In this document: positions 2,268 through 19,921 of the stretch, in pieces
Layout: each line of letters opens with the position of its first letter
How positions within the stretch are numbered: the first letter of the stretch is position 1
Source: a virus
Direction: 5' to 3' (one strand)
DNA: 22,423 nucleotides
IMG/VR virus record: IMGVR_UViG_3300046543_000062
Span: 1 to 22,423 of that record
The notes under the pieces: model-generated
The model's input: the letters and a program-made list of their open reading frames with translations, nothing else
Databases searched by the model: none
What the model was told of the DNA's origin: nothing
Program-made: the position numbers and the translations under genes

Positions 2268-2784
2268 ATTTCGGCGTGAAGCAGATCGGCAGACGGTTGT
2301 CCGGACCGCGCGACGACGGAAGATTGTCTATCAGCTTCCAGTTCTCGTCGAGTGCCCACCATAATTTGTAGCCGAGCTTAAGACCGCTGCTATTGGTCTG
2401 GCAGAAGTATTTTCCGTCTGACGTGTGCGCTTTTAACTCAGTGAGCGTCGGACCATCATGGACTAGAACGTCGATTACCCAATCCGACGGATTGTAGGGA
2501 AGCCCAAGCGGCCAGTAACATAGTCCATATGCCGGGTTTCGCCAGAGCCATCGCGTGCGCAACCACCAACGCTCCCAGCCGATCGGCGCCGGCGCGCCCA
2601 CAGGCTGAAAATATCCATCGCGCCAGCCAGCATCAAGAGACGCATCTTCGGTCTGGAACCAGCACAGCCAGTTCGGCAGATAACCGTCGCTCTTGCAGAA
2701 CAGGGCGATTACTGGCGCAAACGGCACCGCAAGCAGGTATGTGAAGAGTATCTGAGCGATCGTCGAGAACACATAACGGGCCAT
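2254..2784 (-). CDS. Phage membrane-anchored protein of unknown function, last gene of the lysis cluster
   Basis: A 176-aa protein. An N-terminal hydrophobic segment (about residues 4-30, FSTIAQILFTYLLAVPFAPV) is followed by a Trp/Tyr-rich soluble part. Similar short proteins with one N-terminal membrane segment and many Trp residues occur beside lysis genes in Burkholderia and other proteobacterial phages, but I cannot name a function. It starts right after the holin stop (TGA then ATG), with AAGGGG as SD, so it is in the late operon. It lacks the long charged coiled coil of Rz-type spanins. Its 3' end overlaps the convergent lipoprotein gene. Confidence 0.75.
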   Translation of the reverse strand: MARYVFSTIAQILFTYLLAVPFAPVIALFCKSDGYLPNWLCWFQTEDASLDAGWRDGYFQPVGAPAPIGWERWWLRTRWLWRNPAYGLCYWPLGLPYNPSDWVIDVLVHDGPTLTELKAHTSDGKYFCQTNSSGLKLGYKLWWALDENWKLIDNLPSSRGPDNRLPICFTPKFTSM

Positions 2785-3393
2785 TCAATGCCCCTTGAAC
2801 AGACTTGGCTCAGGGAGGGGTGCCGGGGCGACAGGATCGGCAGCGGCTTGAGTGTGGATGTTTATCGGCGCGTTTGCCGCGGCATATCCAACGTCTGCGA
2901 TCATCTTCGTCTGGCCGGCGCTTTCCTTGCTCGACCCGAAGTAATACGAGATCACCGATATCCAGGCGGTCTGAAGCGCTCCGATCATAACGAGCAACAG
3001 ATCGTGGACTGTATTCGACAGCGGCGCCAGCATAACCGCGGTGAGCGCACCGAAGAAGCCCAGGGTGACACCGCCTGCCAAGAACTGAGGGGTGTAATCA
3101 CGAGGGTTCGACGTCTGTCGTGCGCGGGCATTCTGCACATCGGCAAGACGGTTCGCCTCCGCGGTAATCAGAAGAGTCTGCATCTGAACCTTGTTCGACA
3201 TCTCGGCTTCTCTCAGCTTTTCGAGTGCGGCCGGGTCAGCGGCAATTGCCGTATTCACCGAATCCGCATCATTCGAAGTGCCGAGCGCACTCGCAATCAA
3301 TGCTCCAGCAACGCCGCCGAGCGGGCCGCCAAGTGCCGTACCGAGAATTGGAGCTGCTTTGCCGACTGCGCCGGCGATGTCTGACCAGTTCAT
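2785..3393 (-). CDS. Holin of the 3TM type
   Basis: A 202-aa protein. An N-terminal Gly/Ala-rich amphipathic stretch (about residues 6-38, with LGGPLGGVAG) comes before a charged helical middle and two clear membrane segments (about 104-125 and 129-152), then a Pro/Ala-rich tail. This order matches the 3TM holin family found with phage and gene-transfer-agent endolysins. It would form inner-membrane lesions that release the signal-less endolysin next door. I chose the ATG at 3393 rather than 3405: GGAG lies 6 bp upstream, and this start sits just past the endolysin stop (TGA-T-ATG), whereas the 3405 ATG lies inside the endolysin gene. Both starts are in frame. Confidence 0.8.
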   Translation of the reverse strand: MNWSDIAGAVGKAAPILGTALGGPLGGVAGALIASALGTSNDADSVNTAIAADPAALEKLREAEMSNKVQMQTLLITAEANRLADVQNARARQTSNPRDYTPQFLAGGVTLGFFGALTAVMLAPLSNTVHDLLLVMIGALQTAWISVISYYFGSSKESAGQTKMIADVGYAAANAPINIHTQAAADPVAPAPLPEPSLFKGH

Positions 3394-3394
3394 A

Positions 3395-3814
3395 TCACGC
3401 TCCATTTCTCATCATGTCGGCGAGACGCGTCGCACGTGCACCTACCTGCGTTGCCCAGCGACTAGCCAGCATTCCATTCGCCGCAGCGTTGTAATCTCCG
3501 CGCTGGATAGCCGCCAAGGTATTCACGAACGACAGAAGACCACCGCCCATGTTGAATGTCATGTTGACCATAACGCGCTGTCGAACGGGATCGAGCGTTG
3601 ACCACCACGGCAGGTTTCGATCTAGCCAAGCGGTCGTGCGCCCAATATCGTTCTCTAGCAGCGCGTTGCACTCGTCCTGCGAAATACCGACATCGGACAA
3701 GTTCCGACCTACGCCGATCGTCGTCTTTCCTACCGTGTCGAGGTATGGCTTGAGTCTCACGCCTTCGTCGCGGCACAGCTCTGCGACGAGCGTTGGCATA
3801 TCGAAAGCGCTCAT
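3395..3814 (-). CDS. T4-type lysozyme endolysin (GH24)
   Basis: A 139-aa muramidase. The T4-lysozyme triad is present with the exact family spacing: Glu17, Asp26 and Thr32 within DEGVRLKPYLDTVGKTTIG. Later parts (ALLENDI, MVNMTFNMGGG, ATRLADMMRNG) also fit GH24 phage lysozymes. It hydrolyses the MurNAc-GlcNAc bond to lyse the host. No signal peptide or SAR segment is visible, so it needs the holin. I chose the ATG at 3814 because of the SD GAAGGTG and because it overlaps the upstream stop (ATGA); the frame is open up to 3877 but that part does not look like the family. Confidence 0.93.
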   Translation of the reverse strand: MSAFDMPTLVAELCRDEGVRLKPYLDTVGKTTIGVGRNLSDVGISQDECNALLENDIGRTTAWLDRNLPWWSTLDPVRQRVMVNMTFNMGGGLLSFVNTLAAIQRGDYNAAANGMLASRWATQVGARATRLADMMRNGA

Positions 3815-4140
3815 GTGTTCACCTTCGCTCGGAAGTAATACCAAACGGCTGTTGCAAGCCCGACAATCAACGCCCATACCCCTTTTTGCGCAAGGTCGAC
3901 GCGCAGTTCCTCATAGAACCTCGTTTTCGCCAGATAGCGTTCAATCATCGCCTCGTGATACCTGCGATGCCCGTCCCAGTCGCCGCCGGGGAATGCCTTG
4001 TGTAAGTCGTCCACTCTGCGTATAACCTCGTCAACTTTGCGATCCGTCACAAGTTGTTGTGTGACGTTCTCGGAATGCCGCTGGTCCATGTCGGCTGAAA
4101 GGGCGTTTATCGCCGCTGCAATGTCTTCGTGTATCGGCAT
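3811..4140 (-). CDS. Small protein with C-terminal membrane anchor in the lysis cassette
   Basis: A 109-aa protein. The N-terminal 80 residues are charged and helical (coiled-coil-like, residues 12-50), and one membrane segment lies at about 86-103 (GVWALIVGLATAVWYYF) with a short basic tail. This C-tail-anchored form is common directly upstream of phage lysozymes. It may be an antiholin, a second holin or a holin regulator; sequence alone does not decide. It overlaps the endolysin start by 4 bp (ATGA), so the two are translationally coupled. The SD is GGGG, 6 bp before the ATG. Confidence 0.75.
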   Translation of the reverse strand: MPIHEDIAAAINALSADMDQRHSENVTQQLVTDRKVDEVIRRVDDLHKAFPGGDWDGHRRYHEAMIERYLAKTRFYEELRVDLAQKGVWALIVGLATAVWYYFRAKVNT

Positions 4141-4179
4141 TCGAAGCCCCGGAAAATGCCACTCTATGGAGGCGTATTT

Positions 4180-4317
4180 TTATACGGCTGGCAGCGGCGT
4201 ATTGCCTGCTGCAAGCCATTTTTGATACTCAACATAATCCGAGTTCTTCGGATCAGCCGGAATAAATGCGCCATCGGACAGGCGTTTGATGATGAACTGG
4301 CTAACGATCTGATACAT
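4180..4317 (-). CDS. 45-aa phage protein next to the tail fibre gene
   Basis: A short gene starting MYQIVSQFIIKRLSDGAFIP and ending PLPAV. The SD is excellent (GAGGAG, 5 bp before ATG 4317) and the gene begins 9 bp after the fibre stop. Short peptides with this 'DGAFIPADPxNxDYxxYxxWLAxGNTP' pattern are widespread behind phage tail-fibre genes, where the same motif also forms the end of some fibre-assembly proteins. The pattern recall supports it being a real gene; its function is unknown. Confidence 0.8.
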   Translation of the reverse strand: MYQIVSQFIIKRLSDGAFIPADPKNSDYVEYQKWLAAGNTPLPAV

Positions 4318-4326
4318 GGTCGCTCC

Positions 4327-5763
4327 TCAAAGTGACGCGTTAAGCGCAACGTCTCCGCCTGCGGCCCAAAAGGCACTCCCAAGTGCTGTAACCGACGCAA
4401 ATAAGTTCACGACATTGCTAAAAACGCTGTCGACACTCAGACCGGAAGCATTGCTGTAAGCGGGTGTCCCAAGAAATGTGACACTCGGAGCAGCTCGCAT
4501 ATCTGGAAATGTAAATCCGCCGCCGATCGGTCCCGTCGGTGCCGAATATCCGAAGAACTTCGGAGAATTTAGCAGCCGGTAATAGCGTGTGCACAATGGA
4601 AACTCGACGGGATATCCGCGAACTTCGAACGGTTGTACTGCGCCTTCGTTTAGCTGAACCTGCGCAATCTGGAAAAAGTCTGCCGCGCCTGCGGTGCCGG
4701 TCGGAGTGACAGAGAAGCCTACGGCGAACTGTGTTGCTGTAGCGGGAACTACAAACGTCATCGTGCCGCGCGCATATGTACCGGTCAGGGTTTGCGTCGT
4801 GGTCACATTCCCGAATGAACCCGTAAAGCCGGTTGCCGCGTTACCATCCACGCCAGTCCCGAAGAACGCGAGCGCAGTCAATGCCGTTCCATTGAACGCG
4901 CCGTTACCGAATGCAGACCACGACAGCGTGACTGTCTTACCAACCCATCGAATCACATCACTGCTTTCGAATGACGTGCTGACATTGATTACCTGCGTAT
5001 TGACATCACCGGCATTGCGTTGCACCTTCAGTGCGAATCGCGAGCCAGGAGGGACCGTACCATTGCGCGTGGCCGTATATCCAGTCGCGAAAGAGATGCG
5101 GTAAATTTGCCAGCAGTCAGGGCCATACGCAGCGGCGGACGTAGCCGCGTTCGTGAAGCTCGCGCCACGCTGCCACACGTCGAAATCGCCGTTGATGATC
5201 TTGTTGATCAACCCTTGCGATGTATTCGGCGCGAGTTGCGACAACGCGATAAATTGCGTTCCGTCGTACCTGACCACGATCGATTGACCGGTTTGCAAAT
5301 CGCCAGGGGCAAGCTGCACAAGTCCGCTCGGACCTTGCTTCATGACTGCTTTCGCACCAACCGTGCTGATGTTCAGCGTGACCGCGCTAGTCGTATTCGC
5401 GCCGGTTGCATTAAACGAGAACTGTTGTCCTGCGACATACGCGGTGATTGCTGGCGAACTAGCAGCCGTGATTGTGTCTGTCCCGGCAATCGTGCCGAGC
5501 GTCGTTATAGCTCCGTCTTGAATCTGTCCCACATTGGGCGCGGCCGTCCTTGTCGTTCCGGCGCCCACTCCTGTAAGCTGGAACCCGCCGAGCGGAATAT
5601 TCGCCGTGGGAGTTTGCTGGCCGTCTTTGGTAAGTGCGTTCGTCAGCCCATTATTTGCGATGTCGGAAAGCGTATTATTGGCCCACGTCGAACTAATCAC
5701 CGTGCCTGTGATAACCGGATTGCCAGCGACGAGCTGGAAAACGCCTGAGCCGTTGTATGGCAA
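4327..5763 (-). CDS. Tail fibre / receptor-binding protein with TTG start
   Basis: A 478-aa protein. The N-terminus (PYNGSGVFQLVAGNPVITGT) is the short particle-binding start found in many phage tail-fibre and neck proteins. Residues 55-180 are Thr/Ala/Gly-rich beta sequence. From about residue 191 (INKIINGDFDVWQRG) to about 390 lies a jelly-roll-like region resembling the carbohydrate-binding modules of phage fibres, followed by a C-terminal receptor part. No hydrolase motif was seen. Start choice: there is no ATG. TTG at 5763 has a strong SD (GGAGGTG, 4 bp away) and gives the expected family N-terminus; TTG at 5781 has none. A terminator lies just upstream, so this gene probably also has its own promoter or depends on read-through. 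Confidence 0.85.
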   Translation of the reverse strand: MPYNGSGVFQLVAGNPVITGTVISSTWANNTLSDIANNGLTNALTKDGQQTPTANIPLGGFQLTGVGAGTTRTAAPNVGQIQDGAITTLGTIAGTDTITAASSPAITAYVAGQQFSFNATGANTTSAVTLNISTVGAKAVMKQGPSGLVQLAPGDLQTGQSIVVRYDGTQFIALSQLAPNTSQGLINKIINGDFDVWQRGASFTNAATSAAAYGPDCWQIYRISFATGYTATRNGTVPPGSRFALKVQRNAGDVNTQVINVSTSFESSDVIRWVGKTVTLSWSAFGNGAFNGTALTALAFFGTGVDGNAATGFTGSFGNVTTTQTLTGTYARGTMTFVVPATATQFAVGFSVTPTGTAGAADFFQIAQVQLNEGAVQPFEVRGYPVEFPLCTRYYRLLNSPKFFGYSAPTGPIGGGFTFPDMRAAPSVTFLGTPAYSNASGLSVDSVFSNVVNLFASVTALGSAFWAAGGDVALNASL

Positions 5764-16304: not shown

Positions 16305-16601
16305 TTAGACCGATGCGATACCGAACCAGCCGTAATCGCCGGTGCTCATCGCAGTAGCCGGCGACGTGTACGAACCGCCCGACGCCGTCGCGAGGAACGT
16401 CGACGGCGCCACCGTGCATGCGGTCGTTGAAGCGGTGATCGACGCATTGGCCTTGGCGAAGACGTAGCGCTTACCGTCGCTGCCAAAGACCTGCTCGCCG
16501 AGGTTGACGGGAATCTGGCGAGCGCCCGACGCGATGTCGGTTGCCAAGATCGTGTTGATCAGATCGAAGCCGATCTGCGGAGTTACGGAAAAGACGGGCA
16601 T
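16305..16601 (-). CDS. 98-aa protein following the major capsid protein (possible head decoration)
   Basis: The gene has SD AAGGAG, 5 bp before ATG 16601, and starts 9 bp after the capsid stop, inside the capsid-terminator block, so it is probably made at high level. The sequence is mostly beta-like with Gly, Thr and Ala (e.g. GSDGKRYVFAKANASITAS). Size and position suit a capsid decoration or stabilising protein; no specific family could be named. Confidence 0.65.
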   Translation of the reverse strand: MPVFSVTPQIGFDLINTILATDIASGARQIPVNLGEQVFGSDGKRYVFAKANASITASTTACTVAPSTFLATASGGSYTSPATAMSTGDYGWFGIASV

Positions 16602-16610
16602 GATTGCTCC

Positions 16611-17576
16611 TTAGGCGATGAGAACGCCACTGAACTGCGGTCCACGGGAGGTCAGGTTGCCGGCCCAGCCAATCAATTTGCTAACCGCATCTTGGTTGAC
16701 TGCCTGACGCTCGCCGCCGATCGGCACGAAGTTACGGTCACGGTGCGGCCGGAACGAGATGTACTTCGTGTTGAGACCCCACATGTGATTCGCCGTCGCG
16801 TTGGCGCCGATACCGCCGTCAAGCACAACGTCAGCCGCCATGCCGCCGCCGTAGAACTTCAGTGCGGGGAAGCCTGCGCCGGCGAGCTTCGTATTGCCAT
16901 CGCTCATGACGCGCTGCTGCGCCTGCATCGATGCGACATACATCGAGTAGTAGTTGTTGTCCGCAACGAACAGGTCCATACGATCACGACCGCGAACCGC
17001 CTTCAGGGCGAGCTGCGTCATGTAGTTCTGGATGTTCGCTGCCGAGACAGCAGCACCACCGTTCGTCGTGCCCGAGAACACCTGCGATTGCCAGAAGGCG
17101 AACGATGCGCGGTTGATACCGCCATACGTGCCCGAGGTCGGCGCATCCGGAACAGCCGCAGCCAAGCCGGTGATGTTCTTGCCGCTGTTGCCCGTACCAT
17201 CGAGGTAGATGTCGGCCGCAATACGGTTGATCAGCTGCGCTTCAGCAATGTCCATGCGCGAATCGAGCAGGTCGATGATCGCTTCTTTCGACGAGTTCTG
17301 AAGCATTTCCAGACCCGAGATGGTGACAGCCGCTGCGTACTGCTGGATCGAGAACTGAGCCGCCGAAATCGGGCTGTTCGGCGCGATGTTCAGGACTTCG
17401 TAACCCGAGTACGAATTGACGTTGGTCGTCGTCGCGTCGGTGTACATGACTTCTTCCAAAATCACGTTACCACCGCCGAACGGACGGACATTCCCACGCT
17501 CACGCAGAACCATGAGCAGGGCGTTGTTGTTTGTTACGTTGTCAGCGAGTTCGCCGCTACGACTCTGAATGGTGGT
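16611..17576 (-). CDS. Major capsid protein, exon 2 (codons 14-334 plus stop)
   Basis: Major capsid protein with HK97-like character: SGELADNVTNNNALLMVLRE..., then GGNVILEEVMYTD, and the C-terminal GGERQAVNQDAVSKLIGWAGNLTSRGPQFSGVLIA. A naive start at ATG 17513 gives 300 aa, but in-frame sequence continues upstream to TTIQSRSGELADN at 17576, and the frame hits a stop at 17586-17588. The missing first 13 codons are at 18441-18479, separated by a group I intron. Joined, the protein is 334 aa, a normal size. It lies between the scaffold and the 98-aa protein. The protein name comes from its family pattern and position; exon joining is inferred from the frame and intron rules. Confidence 0.88.
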   Translation of the reverse strand, partial: TTIQSRSGELADNVTNNNALLMVLRERGNVRPFGGGNVILEEVMYTDATTTNVNSYSGYEVLNIAPNSPISAAQFSIQQYAAAVTISGLEMLQNSSKEAIIDLLDSRMDIAEAQLINRIAADIYLDGTGNSGKNITGLAAAVPDAPTSGTYGGINRASFAFWQSQVFSGTTNGGAAVSAANIQNYMTQLALKAVRGRDRMDLFVADNNYYSMYVASMQAQQRVMSDGNTKLAGAGFPALKFYGGGMAADVVLDGGIGANATANHMWGLNTKYISFRPHRDRNFVPIGGERQAVNQDAVSKLIGWAGNLTSRGPQFSGVLIA

Positions 17577-18440
17577 CAGACCTTGTTATCGCACCGGCTC
17601 TTTATCCAGTGCTTCACCATATTCCTATGGTGCTCAGACTATGTCATCACTATCCCGATGTTCTGGGTAGGCAGGGCGCTCGTGGGTTCGTTACTGCTTT
17701 CGCTCGGAACCTAGTCGTTACACGTTCCGCACCCCTCAGCCTTTCGGCCTGCATGTGCGGCTTCGCTCGGCGTTGCCCGTTCTGGGTTTTCACCGAATTC
17801 ACCCTGTTTTACATCGCCTTCCTGGTGCTATAATATCTCTATTACGTACTCCTACAAACCCATGAAACCCGGCAAAAAACCATTCGTCGAGAAGGTCTGC
17901 CCCGCATGCGGAGTGACCAAGCCGCGCTCTGAATACTACAGGAAGGGCGAGACGGTCAGCCATAAATGCAAACCGTGTTCGCTCGCTGCTATCCGCGAAC
18001 GCGCGCCCAAGTACATCGGAAAGTATTCCGAGTACCAGAACGAATGGCGCAAGCAGAAGTATTCGACCGAGCCTGACTACCGGGAAAAGATCGCCGAGCA
18101 GAAAAAGGCTTGGCGCGCCGGGCGCATCGAAGAACTGAATGCGAAGCGGCGTTTCCGGTGGGCCAATGATCCTTACGATCCGGCCCGCAAGTACTATCGA
18201 CGAAAGGACGTGAAAGACCGCACCCCGAAATGGGTCGACCTCACAGAGATCCTAGAGTTTTATGCTAAGTGCCCCAAGGGTTACGAAGTTGATCACATCG
18301 TCCCCTTGAAGGGTTTGATCGACGGACGCCCCGTTTCTGGGCTTCACGTCCTTCACAATCTTCAATACCTCACGGCAGCGGAAAATCGGAAGAAGTACAA
18401 CAGAATTACGGAAGAGACACTACAGCTTTCAGATTTCTTA
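17577..18440 (-). ncRNA. Group I intron (864 nt) inside the major capsid gene
   Basis: Exon 1 ends GCU and the intron ends in G (...GUCUG), the group I rule, and removal restores frame and a family-like capsid N-terminus. P1: exon 1 CAUCGCU (18447-18441) pairs with GGCGAUG (17818-17812), 7 bp with U-G at the splice site. P4: CGGUG (17795-17791) with CGCCG (17772-17768). P5: CCC (17786-17784) with GGG (17778-17776). P6: CCGCAC (17760-17755) with GUGCGG (17732-17727), inside it a GAAA-capped stem. P7: GACUA (17716-17712) with UAGUC (17641-17637), in the contexts AACGACUA and AUAGUCUG, as in the T4 td intron. P9: CACCAUA-GGAA-UAUGGUG (17632-17615). The HNH gene fills the P1 loop. The subgroup looks IA-like. 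P3, P8 and P10 were not resolved. Confidence 0.9.
17808..17834 (+). promoter_or_regulatory. Intron-borne extended -10 promoter for the HNH gene
   Basis: TGCTATAAT (17826-17834) is a perfect extended -10 box; TTTACA (17808-17813, 5/6 match to TTGACA) lies 15 bp upstream. The start would be near 17841, giving a leader of about 20 nt. The -35 box overlaps the internal guide sequence (17812-17818) on the other strand. No clear SD precedes ATG 17862, so translation may be weak. Confidence 0.6.
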
Positions 18441-18485
18441 AGCGATGATGTCGCTGATTGCTCCATTGGCGAATGCCATGTGTAG
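17862..18485 (+). CDS. HNH homing endonuclease, antisense inside the capsid intron
   Basis: A 207-aa protein. Two CxxC knuckles (Cys13/16 and Cys36/39) form an N-terminal zinc ribbon; a basic helical linker of about 90 residues follows; the HNH fold shows Asp144-His145 (VDHIVPLKG), Asn166 in LHNLQYL and Asn175/Asn180 in ENRKKYN. It probably cuts intronless capsid genes at or near the splice junction and so spreads the intron. Unlike most phage intron endonucleases it is encoded opposite to the host gene. Residues 194-207 are encoded by the antisense of capsid exon 1, and its stop codon abuts the capsid SD. Start 17862 is the first ATG of the frame, with no obvious SD. Confidence 0.88.
   Translation: MKPGKKPFVEKVCPACGVTKPRSEYYRKGETVSHKCKPCSLAAIRERAPKYIGKYSEYQNEWRKQKYSTEPDYREKIAEQKKAWRAGRIEELNAKRRFRWANDPYDPARKYYRRKDVKDRTPKWVDLTEILEFYAKCPKGYEVDHIVPLKGLIDGRPVSGLHVLHNLQYLTAAENRKKYNRITEETLQLSDFLSDDVADCSIGECHV
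18441..18479 (-). CDS. Major capsid protein, exon 1 (13 codons)
   Basis: On the minus strand AGGAG (18490-18486) then 6 bp and ATG at 18479, 21 bp after the scaffold stop, where the capsid gene should begin. It encodes MAFANGAISDIIA, followed in the unspliced RNA by an immediate UAA. Joined to exon 2 it gives ...SDIIA-TTIQSRSGEL, the normal start of this capsid family as I remember it. Without splicing only a 13-residue peptide would be made. Confidence 0.85.
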
Positions 18486-18500
18486 CTCCTATCAGTGAGA

Positions 18501-19559
18501 TCAAATACGGCTTGCGGTTGCCTGGTCGAAGGATTCTTCCAGTGCCGCTCGCCGTCCTTTCGGTGCCCCGCCTGTCGTTGCCGCGAGTGCGCCGGGTGTG
18601 GCCGTTCGCGTGCTGACTGCGTTCGCTTTGGCTGCTTTCGCTGCCTTATCCGCCTCGATCCGACGGTTCTTCTCAGCTGCATCGCGTTGTGTCGCCTGAT
18701 GCTTCGTGAAAAGTTCGTCGTTCAAGCGGAGCGCCTTCGAATAGGCGCTATCAAGATCCGTAGCCATGCCCGCTTGTAGCAGGCGCTGCATCTCCGGTCC
18801 CAATTGGTCTACAAACGGATGCGATGACCTGAAGTTCTCAACTTCGGCCACCGCAGCCGCCTGAATCTGTGCGTGTTGCTGGTTCTGATACTGCGACATC
18901 TGGTTTTCCAGATCGCGTGCGCGCTGTTGCGCTGCCATCACGTTCGGATCGATGTGGTGCTGCATGTGCTGCGGCAATGCCGCGCTCTGCTGCAACATCT
19001 GCTGGAGTGGAATGCCGACCGCATGAGCCACATTCACCAGCGTCTGAATCTTCGTCGCCTCGTCGCCGGTCGCAAGCAGCTTGCGCGTGTACAGCAAGTC
19101 GCGGACGACGACTTCCGGCTGAACGCCCTGCTGCCGAAGCTCGTCCATGTGCGGCTGGATCGATTGAACGATCGGCTCAACCTTCGCGCGGTAGTCATCG
19201 AACCCGCGCTGGCTTTCCTGCTCGCGCTGATGGATGTACTTCGCTACTTCCGGGTCGAGCTTGTCCCAATGGGCGCGCTGATCAGCCTTCCACGACTTCG
19301 GCGGCTCGGGGCGCTCTGTTGCTACCGGCTGCGCCTCGACGCCTGCCACAGCCTCCGCAGATGGCGCCGCAGGTGCTTTCGGAGCGAACCGACCAGACTC
19401 GTCACGCGACCGGCCTTCGTTCTCGACCGGCTCAGCGCTGATGTTCTCGACGCTCGGCGCATCAACCACAACCTCATGCGTCACTTCGGCTGGCGTGTCC
19501 GTTACTGACTGGTCGATCGCTTCCAGCGCTTCGGCTAAATCTTCTCTGCGGGTTCCCAT
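18501..19559 (-). CDS. Scaffold-like head protein
   Basis: A 352-aa protein. An acidic, disordered N-terminus (about 1-80), a Pro/Ala-rich part, a helical middle starting about residue 90 (KSWKADQRAHWDKLDPEVAKYIHQ), a Gln-rich coiled coil around 200-245, and a basic Ala/Lys C-terminus (e.g. KAAKAAKANAVSTR) that could hold a coat-binding helix. Together with its place between portal and capsid genes this fits an assembly scaffold. SD CGGAGAAACC before ATG 19559; the leader CCACGGAGAAA also precedes the 198-aa gene. Confidence 0.75.
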   Translation of the reverse strand: MGTRREDLAEALEAIDQSVTDTPAEVTHEVVVDAPSVENISAEPVENEGRSRDESGRFAPKAPAAPSAEAVAGVEAQPVATERPEPPKSWKADQRAHWDKLDPEVAKYIHQREQESQRGFDDYRAKVEPIVQSIQPHMDELRQQGVQPEVVVRDLLYTRKLLATGDEATKIQTLVNVAHAVGIPLQQMLQQSAALPQHMQHHIDPNVMAAQQRARDLENQMSQYQNQQHAQIQAAAVAEVENFRSSHPFVDQLGPEMQRLLQAGMATDLDSAYSKALRLNDELFTKHQATQRDAAEKNRRIEADKAAKAAKANAVSTRTATPGALAATTGGAPKGRRAALEESFDQATASRI

Positions 19560-19573
19560 GGTTTCTCCGTGGC

Positions 19574-19921
19574 TTATTTAAGCGCGTTCACTTGGTCGAT
19601 GATCTTTTGCTTACGCGCCTTCTTTGACTCGGGCGCAAGGTCGATCTTTTCTTTGGGCTTCAGGTACTTCGTTTCATTGCCAATCTCGATGCAGTTGTGC
19701 GCCTTCAGGTGCGCGCGGTGGTGCGATCGAGATGTGATCATTTCGCCGGTGATCATCGACTTGTAGGGCGACATATCGGCCGCCACGAATGGAGCGCTGA
19801 CGACACGCTGCACTGCGCCGCCGCATTCACAGTCAGGGATTCCCAAATCGCGTTCGGCAACAGAGCGATACACGGCATCGTCCCTGCCGCAGGACTGGCA
19901 TTTCGTGGCGTAGAGAGGCAT
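19574..19921 (-). CDS. Zinc-ribbon protein, FmdB-like N-terminus
   Basis: A 115-aa protein. The N-terminus MPLYATKCQSCGRDD with CxxC, followed by CEC-GG and VQRVVSAP, resembles FmdB-type zinc-ribbon proteins. The C-terminus is Lys-rich and helical (KKARKQKIIDQVNALK). It lies between portal and scaffold, where many related phages carry a similar small zinc protein; its role is not known. Start ATG overlaps the upstream stop by one base (TGATG). Confidence 0.7.
   Translation of the reverse strand: MPLYATKCQSCGRDDAVYRSVAERDLGIPDCECGGAVQRVVSAPFVAADMSPYKSMITGEMITSRSHHRAHLKAHNCIEIGNETKYLKPKEKIDLAPESKKARKQKIIDQVNALK

Follow-up and report, generated by a model that had tools for sequence, protein, structure and literature searches.

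The major capsid gene of mycobacteriophage LittleE (JF937101) carries an intron of ~820 nt whose splicing was established by RT-PCR and N-terminal sequencing, and a capsid-gene intron of lactococcal phage Tuc2009 is cited in the same paper (PMC3706429). In the T4 td/I-TevI system, with its sense ORF and a ribosome site hidden in a hairpin, the intron has to ensure that translation of the nuclease does not interfere with splicing (PMC3073962). Group I introns with an antisense homing nuclease were described in Didymium rDNA (I-DirII and Dsq.L2066), the I-DirII nuclease having its own promoter (PMC9548176, PMC3073962).

Here we describe a capsid-gene intron in a viral contig of 22,423 nt, referred to as the window. 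The first-pass annotation regarded such an interruption as unusual, which is overstated given LittleE and Tuc2009. We place the group I intron at 17577..18440 on the minus strand (864 nt), based on an empty-site comparison, a match to the Rfam model RF00028 and covariation. The capsid gene, on the same strand, comprises a Shine-Dalgarno sequence AGGAG (18486..18490, recognized in the sequence and equally spaced in intronless relatives), an ATG (18477-18479), exon 1 with codons 1-13 (MAFANGAISDIIA, 18441..18479) and exon 2 (16611..17576, 321 aa, phrog_9953 major head protein, E 3.5e-100), the exons being directly joined in intronless relatives. Deleting 17577-18440 gives a single 334-aa ORF in which MAFANGAISDIIA joins TTIQSRSG, identical to the junction in 78 sampled intronless relatives (drawn from the 80 nearest of the capsid relatives, which number at least 598, with 16 spurious matches of the codon-13 regular expression removed by hand from the empty-site count). 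The spliced N-terminus equals that of these relatives letter for letter; the closest is 99% identical across all 334 residues, and the Mx8 major head protein is 52% identical to the spliced product. The annotation had claimed that the start of the 300-aa capsid ORF (16611-17513) is wrong, its real Shine-Dalgarno sequence, ATG and 13 codons lying upstream, and that removing 17577-18440 restores the frame and the family N-terminus; it had proposed looking for intronless relatives, and their empty site agrees with it on both counts. The 300-aa ORF is an artefact of the ORF start rule: intronless relatives start at the upstream ATG, and inspection revealed no Shine-Dalgarno sequence ahead of the 17513 ATG.

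The first intron codon after exon 1 is an in-frame UAA, so unspliced RNA would yield only a 13-residue peptide; such a stop is present in most group I introns (PMC3073962). Exon 1 ends in U and the intron in G, as had been noted. The U closes exon 1 in 12/12 carriers, and codon 13 has this wobble base in all carriers versus 6/78 intronless relatives (Fisher 3e-10, a value that ignores shared ancestry). A single capsid match per record was found in nine carrier records of up to 39 kb, and the intron lies between codons 13 and 14 of the sole capsid gene seen in the contig.

Scans with the nuclease described below and with the intron pattern brought together twelve contigs with the intron at the same capsid site: the window and eleven further carriers (L002/L058, L003 and L127-L135, where L132 is L123 and L134 is L125). 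Capsid exons flank the insert at the same site wherever the sequence reaches, and the intron measures 812-872 nt where both ends are present. All carriers are metagenomic contigs; neither a carrier nor the nuclease was found in the genome_contigs search.

The minus-strand Rfam search suggested by the first-pass annotation matched RF00028 at 17615-17867 with 55.1 bits (E 1e-11), above the gathering score of 50, and relatives scored 52.8-73.9 bits. We modelled nine helices with 49 pairs over 11 complete cores. In this model 94.6% of cells are paired and 32/49 pairs have two-sided changes; it was drawn on the window sequence, so the pair counts lean towards it, and the covariation contrast is very large (0.550 versus 0.03-0.09 when partners are slid by 1-3 columns, which lowers pairing to 29-38%; 0/500 shuffles). 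The internal guide sequence GGCGATG (17812..17818, −) forms with exon bases CATCGCT (18441-18447) the previously proposed 7-bp P1, with a G·U at the splice site, in 11/11 copies, its partners lying ~600-620 nt apart; in L133 an exon G to A and a guide C to T change occur together, the one compensatory case among 11 copies. Two-sided changes are present in three pairs of P3 (5′ strand CAGGGTG, 17800..17806, −, pairing with 17672-17678), in 7/9 pairs of P4-P5-P4′ (TCGGTG/CGCCGA and CCC/GGG, 17767..17796, −), in 11/14 pairs of P9 and P9.1 (17591..17632, −), and also in P6 and P6a. The P7 strands GACTA (17712-17716) and TAGTC (17637-17641), which form the guanosine site (17637..17716, −) and enclose P7.1, P3′ and P8, are invariant in the 11 copies. 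P3, P6, P6a and P7 are 97-100% paired and P4 95.5%. Covariation or invariance thus backs each of the helices that the annotation had fitted (P4, P5, P6, P7 and P9), as well as P3, P6a and P9.1. All copies have an extra hairpin region between P7 and P3′ (P7.1 as drawn is 74% paired), and by eye no clear exon 2 complement to the guide sequence, as in P10, was seen.

On the opposite strand, a gene for an HNH nuclease of 207 aa (17862..18485, +) occupies the 5′ half of the intron, with a position and orientation common to all 12 contigs. The first-pass annotation mentioned neither this ORF nor the mobile-type nature of the intron. The carrier nucleases, of 185-207 aa and 59-97% identical to the window copy, have an N-terminal zinc ribbon with conserved cysteines and an HNH motif, in which VDHI, N166, N175 and K178 are invariant among 37 relatives. 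The nuclease is under purifying selection, as judged from a dN/dS of 0.04 between the two closest copies (window and L002). It matches PHROG endonuclease families (endonuclease VII, 7e-16) and falls below every Pfam cut-off, with HNH_3 as a sub-threshold match. An AF2 model from 37 sequences reached a pLDDT of 84 (an earlier one from five sequences was poor, at 55), and a PDB fold search with it returned no significant solved structure. The stop codon seen in L002 (GATTAG) is absent from the window (GATTTC), where the last 16 codons continue through exon 1, the stop lies between the capsid ATG and its Shine-Dalgarno sequence, and the tail end is disordered in the AF2 model. The stop lies in, across or beyond exon 1 in 9/12 copies (L133 by position); that it is always in exon 1 was rejected, since it is inside the intron in L002, L127 and L130.

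Other HNH relatives lie within dense viral tRNA arrays (L008, L017, L025, L026, L034 and L037), in viral contigs with overlapping matches to betaproteobacterial and permuted tmRNA (L014 4289-4606, L015 4600-4910), and in one with a glutamine riboswitch match (L012 3462-3509). Elsewhere in the window, we noticed an ORF at 937-1461 with GIYFLI...YVG, GIY-YIG nuclease-like by eye and devoid of Pfam matches, and, running against the transcription direction of the structural genes, a GDSL lipase/acylhydrolase gene at 1530-2267 whose product begins like a lipoprotein.

Ahead of the antisense gene we identified an extended −10 promoter-like element, TGCTATAAT (17826..17834, +). TATAAT is present in 10/11 copies, with TACAAT in the remaining one, and the complete TGCTATAAT is found on the nuclease strand in 9/11, L129 having CGCTATAAT and L133 TGTTACAAT. 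The distance to the ATG is 6-9 nt in 9/11 copies (6 nt in six, 7 in L129, 9 in L003 and L131); in the window and L002 it is 27 nt to the first ATG, and in the window copy the leaderless position holds only an in-frame ATT. None of the 11 copies has a Shine-Dalgarno sequence before the nuclease ATG. Because of this absence and the short distance, the nuclease mRNA, predicted to start at ~17841, probably has no leader, and its synthesis probably does not depend on capsid transcription. A general sigma-70 scan gave promoter-like sites no more numerous than in shuffles, and one TGNTATAAT per window, also seen in 23/100 shuffles, is not rare alone; the case for a promoter therefore rests on conservation.

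Carriers and non-carriers are interleaved among near-identical capsids, the window capsid being 99% identical to that of intronless L041, 98% to intronless L042 and 97% to intron-bearing L002/L058, and nuclease and capsid divergence are uncorrelated (Spearman −0.13; the nuclease tree is poorly resolved). This pattern is as expected of a mobile element. Between the window and L002, identity is 95.6% over the intron (99.3% in its core), 100% over the first 100 nt of exon 2 and 90.6% beyond, a pattern that co-conversion would be expected to leave but that does not prove it. A Burkholderiaceae host is plausible, since a capsid with 84% identity, its gene intronless, is encoded in a genome of Pandoraea iniqua.

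As in LittleE, the intron sits in the major capsid gene with a nuclease ORF on the opposite strand, so that an antisense-nuclease capsid intron is already known in kind; the family and position of the nuclease differ. That of LittleE is a LAGLIDADG enzyme (PF14528) encoded 3′ of the core match, an arrangement that the window intron does not share, its HNH gene lying in the P1 loop; BLASTP found no significant similarity between the two. The LittleE core scores only 30.7 bits against RF00028, below gathering. Given this weak core match and the position and family of the LittleE nuclease, the two layouts are probably convergent, of independent origin. The Didymium introns likewise have antisense nucleases, but they are eukaryotic rDNA introns with His-Cys nucleases and RNA polymerase II, the Dsq.L2066 ORF lying in P9.2. 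The terminase large-subunit intron of Klebsiella phage vB_KpnP_ZX22 (PQ311673, here L121; RF00028 66.6 bits) shares a 46-nt core stretch with 91% identity, but its HNH gene is in sense orientation, and by inspection the ATTATAGCA motif was not seen in it. That record (2404-5036) lists the terminase large subunit as two CDS, one on each side of the HNH gene and group I core. A 200.9-kb phage contig (L126, 1838-5486) has a DNA polymerase I-like gene split by an intron that shares the P9.1 sequence, contains a sense HNH gene and scores only 28.3 bits against RF00028. Within the open-access PubMed Central literature, the conserved family and its layout appear undescribed.

We consider, with a probability of about 0.87, that the element as a whole is a functional, mobile-type, perhaps group IA-like, group I intron housing an antisense, self-promoted HNH homing nuclease. 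A dead intron or a broken capsid gene, with the capsid coming from an internal start or another gene, hardly seems credible: splicing here is predicted from sequence, which leaves room for it, but the covarying core is conserved, no second capsid gene was found in the carrier contigs, and the start used by intronless relatives and the missing Shine-Dalgarno sequence at 17513 argue against an internal start. Nearly as improbable is an antisense ORF that stays open by chance, or that encodes a passenger nuclease independent of the intron. Relatives of the nuclease do occur without an RF00028 match nearby, several in tRNA-rich contigs; the placement and orientation are, however, constant in 12/12 contigs, and the dN/dS, zinc-ribbon cysteines and HNH motif speak against a chance frame.

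The remaining alternatives concern the antisense transcript, and we regard both as unlikely. Instead of a promoter, TGCTATAAT could be an RNA element of the intron or encode CYN as the beginning of a longer nuclease, as motif and ATG share a reading frame in 10/11 copies and TGTTACAAT, the variant of L133, is a synonymous change. An in-frame TGA immediately before the motif excludes the coding reading in L131, the lack of a start codon between motif and upstream stop makes it improbable in the window, L002 and L128, the frame is broken in L129 with TATAAT intact, and the related sense-orientation intron of L121 seems to lack the motif. A mainly regulatory role for the transcript is somewhat more doubtful still: it would base-pair with the capsid start, the 5′ splice site and exon 1, and hold up expression of the capsid. 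The antisense mRNA would indeed run across exon 1 and the 5′ splice site, reaching the capsid start codon as well in the window, and the sole terminator-like site on the plus strand within 16500-19700 is ~1.1 kb further on; selection on the nuclease protein, however, indicates that coding function matters, and the overlap with exon 1 differs among copies. Equally tentative is the idea of a second role for the nuclease mRNA, as a timing switch: produced early from the leaderless promoter within the intron, it would pair with the 5′ splice site and the capsid start and restrain both splicing and capsid production until overtaken by late transcription.

In the favoured reading, that of a mobile intron with a self-promoted nuclease, the capsid pre-mRNA would fold so that P1 joins the last seven bases of exon 1 to the guide ~620 nt downstream, and self-splicing would restore the capsid frame, while the UAA after exon 1 would bar ribosomes from unspliced intron. 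The loop enclosed by P1 would house the homing endonuclease gene, and the extended −10 promoter inside the intron would give a leaderless or nearly leaderless mRNA, allowing nuclease synthesis without ribosomes on the intron RNA and independently of late capsid transcription. As in T4 td/I-TevI, homing may follow: in co-infecting phages, the nuclease would cleave capsid alleles that lack the intron, which would then be copied in during repair.

Gene callers misstart capsid genes of this type and lose their N-terminus, and the 12 loci offer a directly testable family. For intron-borne nucleases of bacteria and phages, translating ribosomes disrupt ribozyme folding; where T4 td hides the ribosome site of a sense ORF, placement on the opposite strand with its own promoter and a leaderless start would avoid this conflict, and LittleE suggests that capsid genes acquired such a layout more than once, and with different nucleases.
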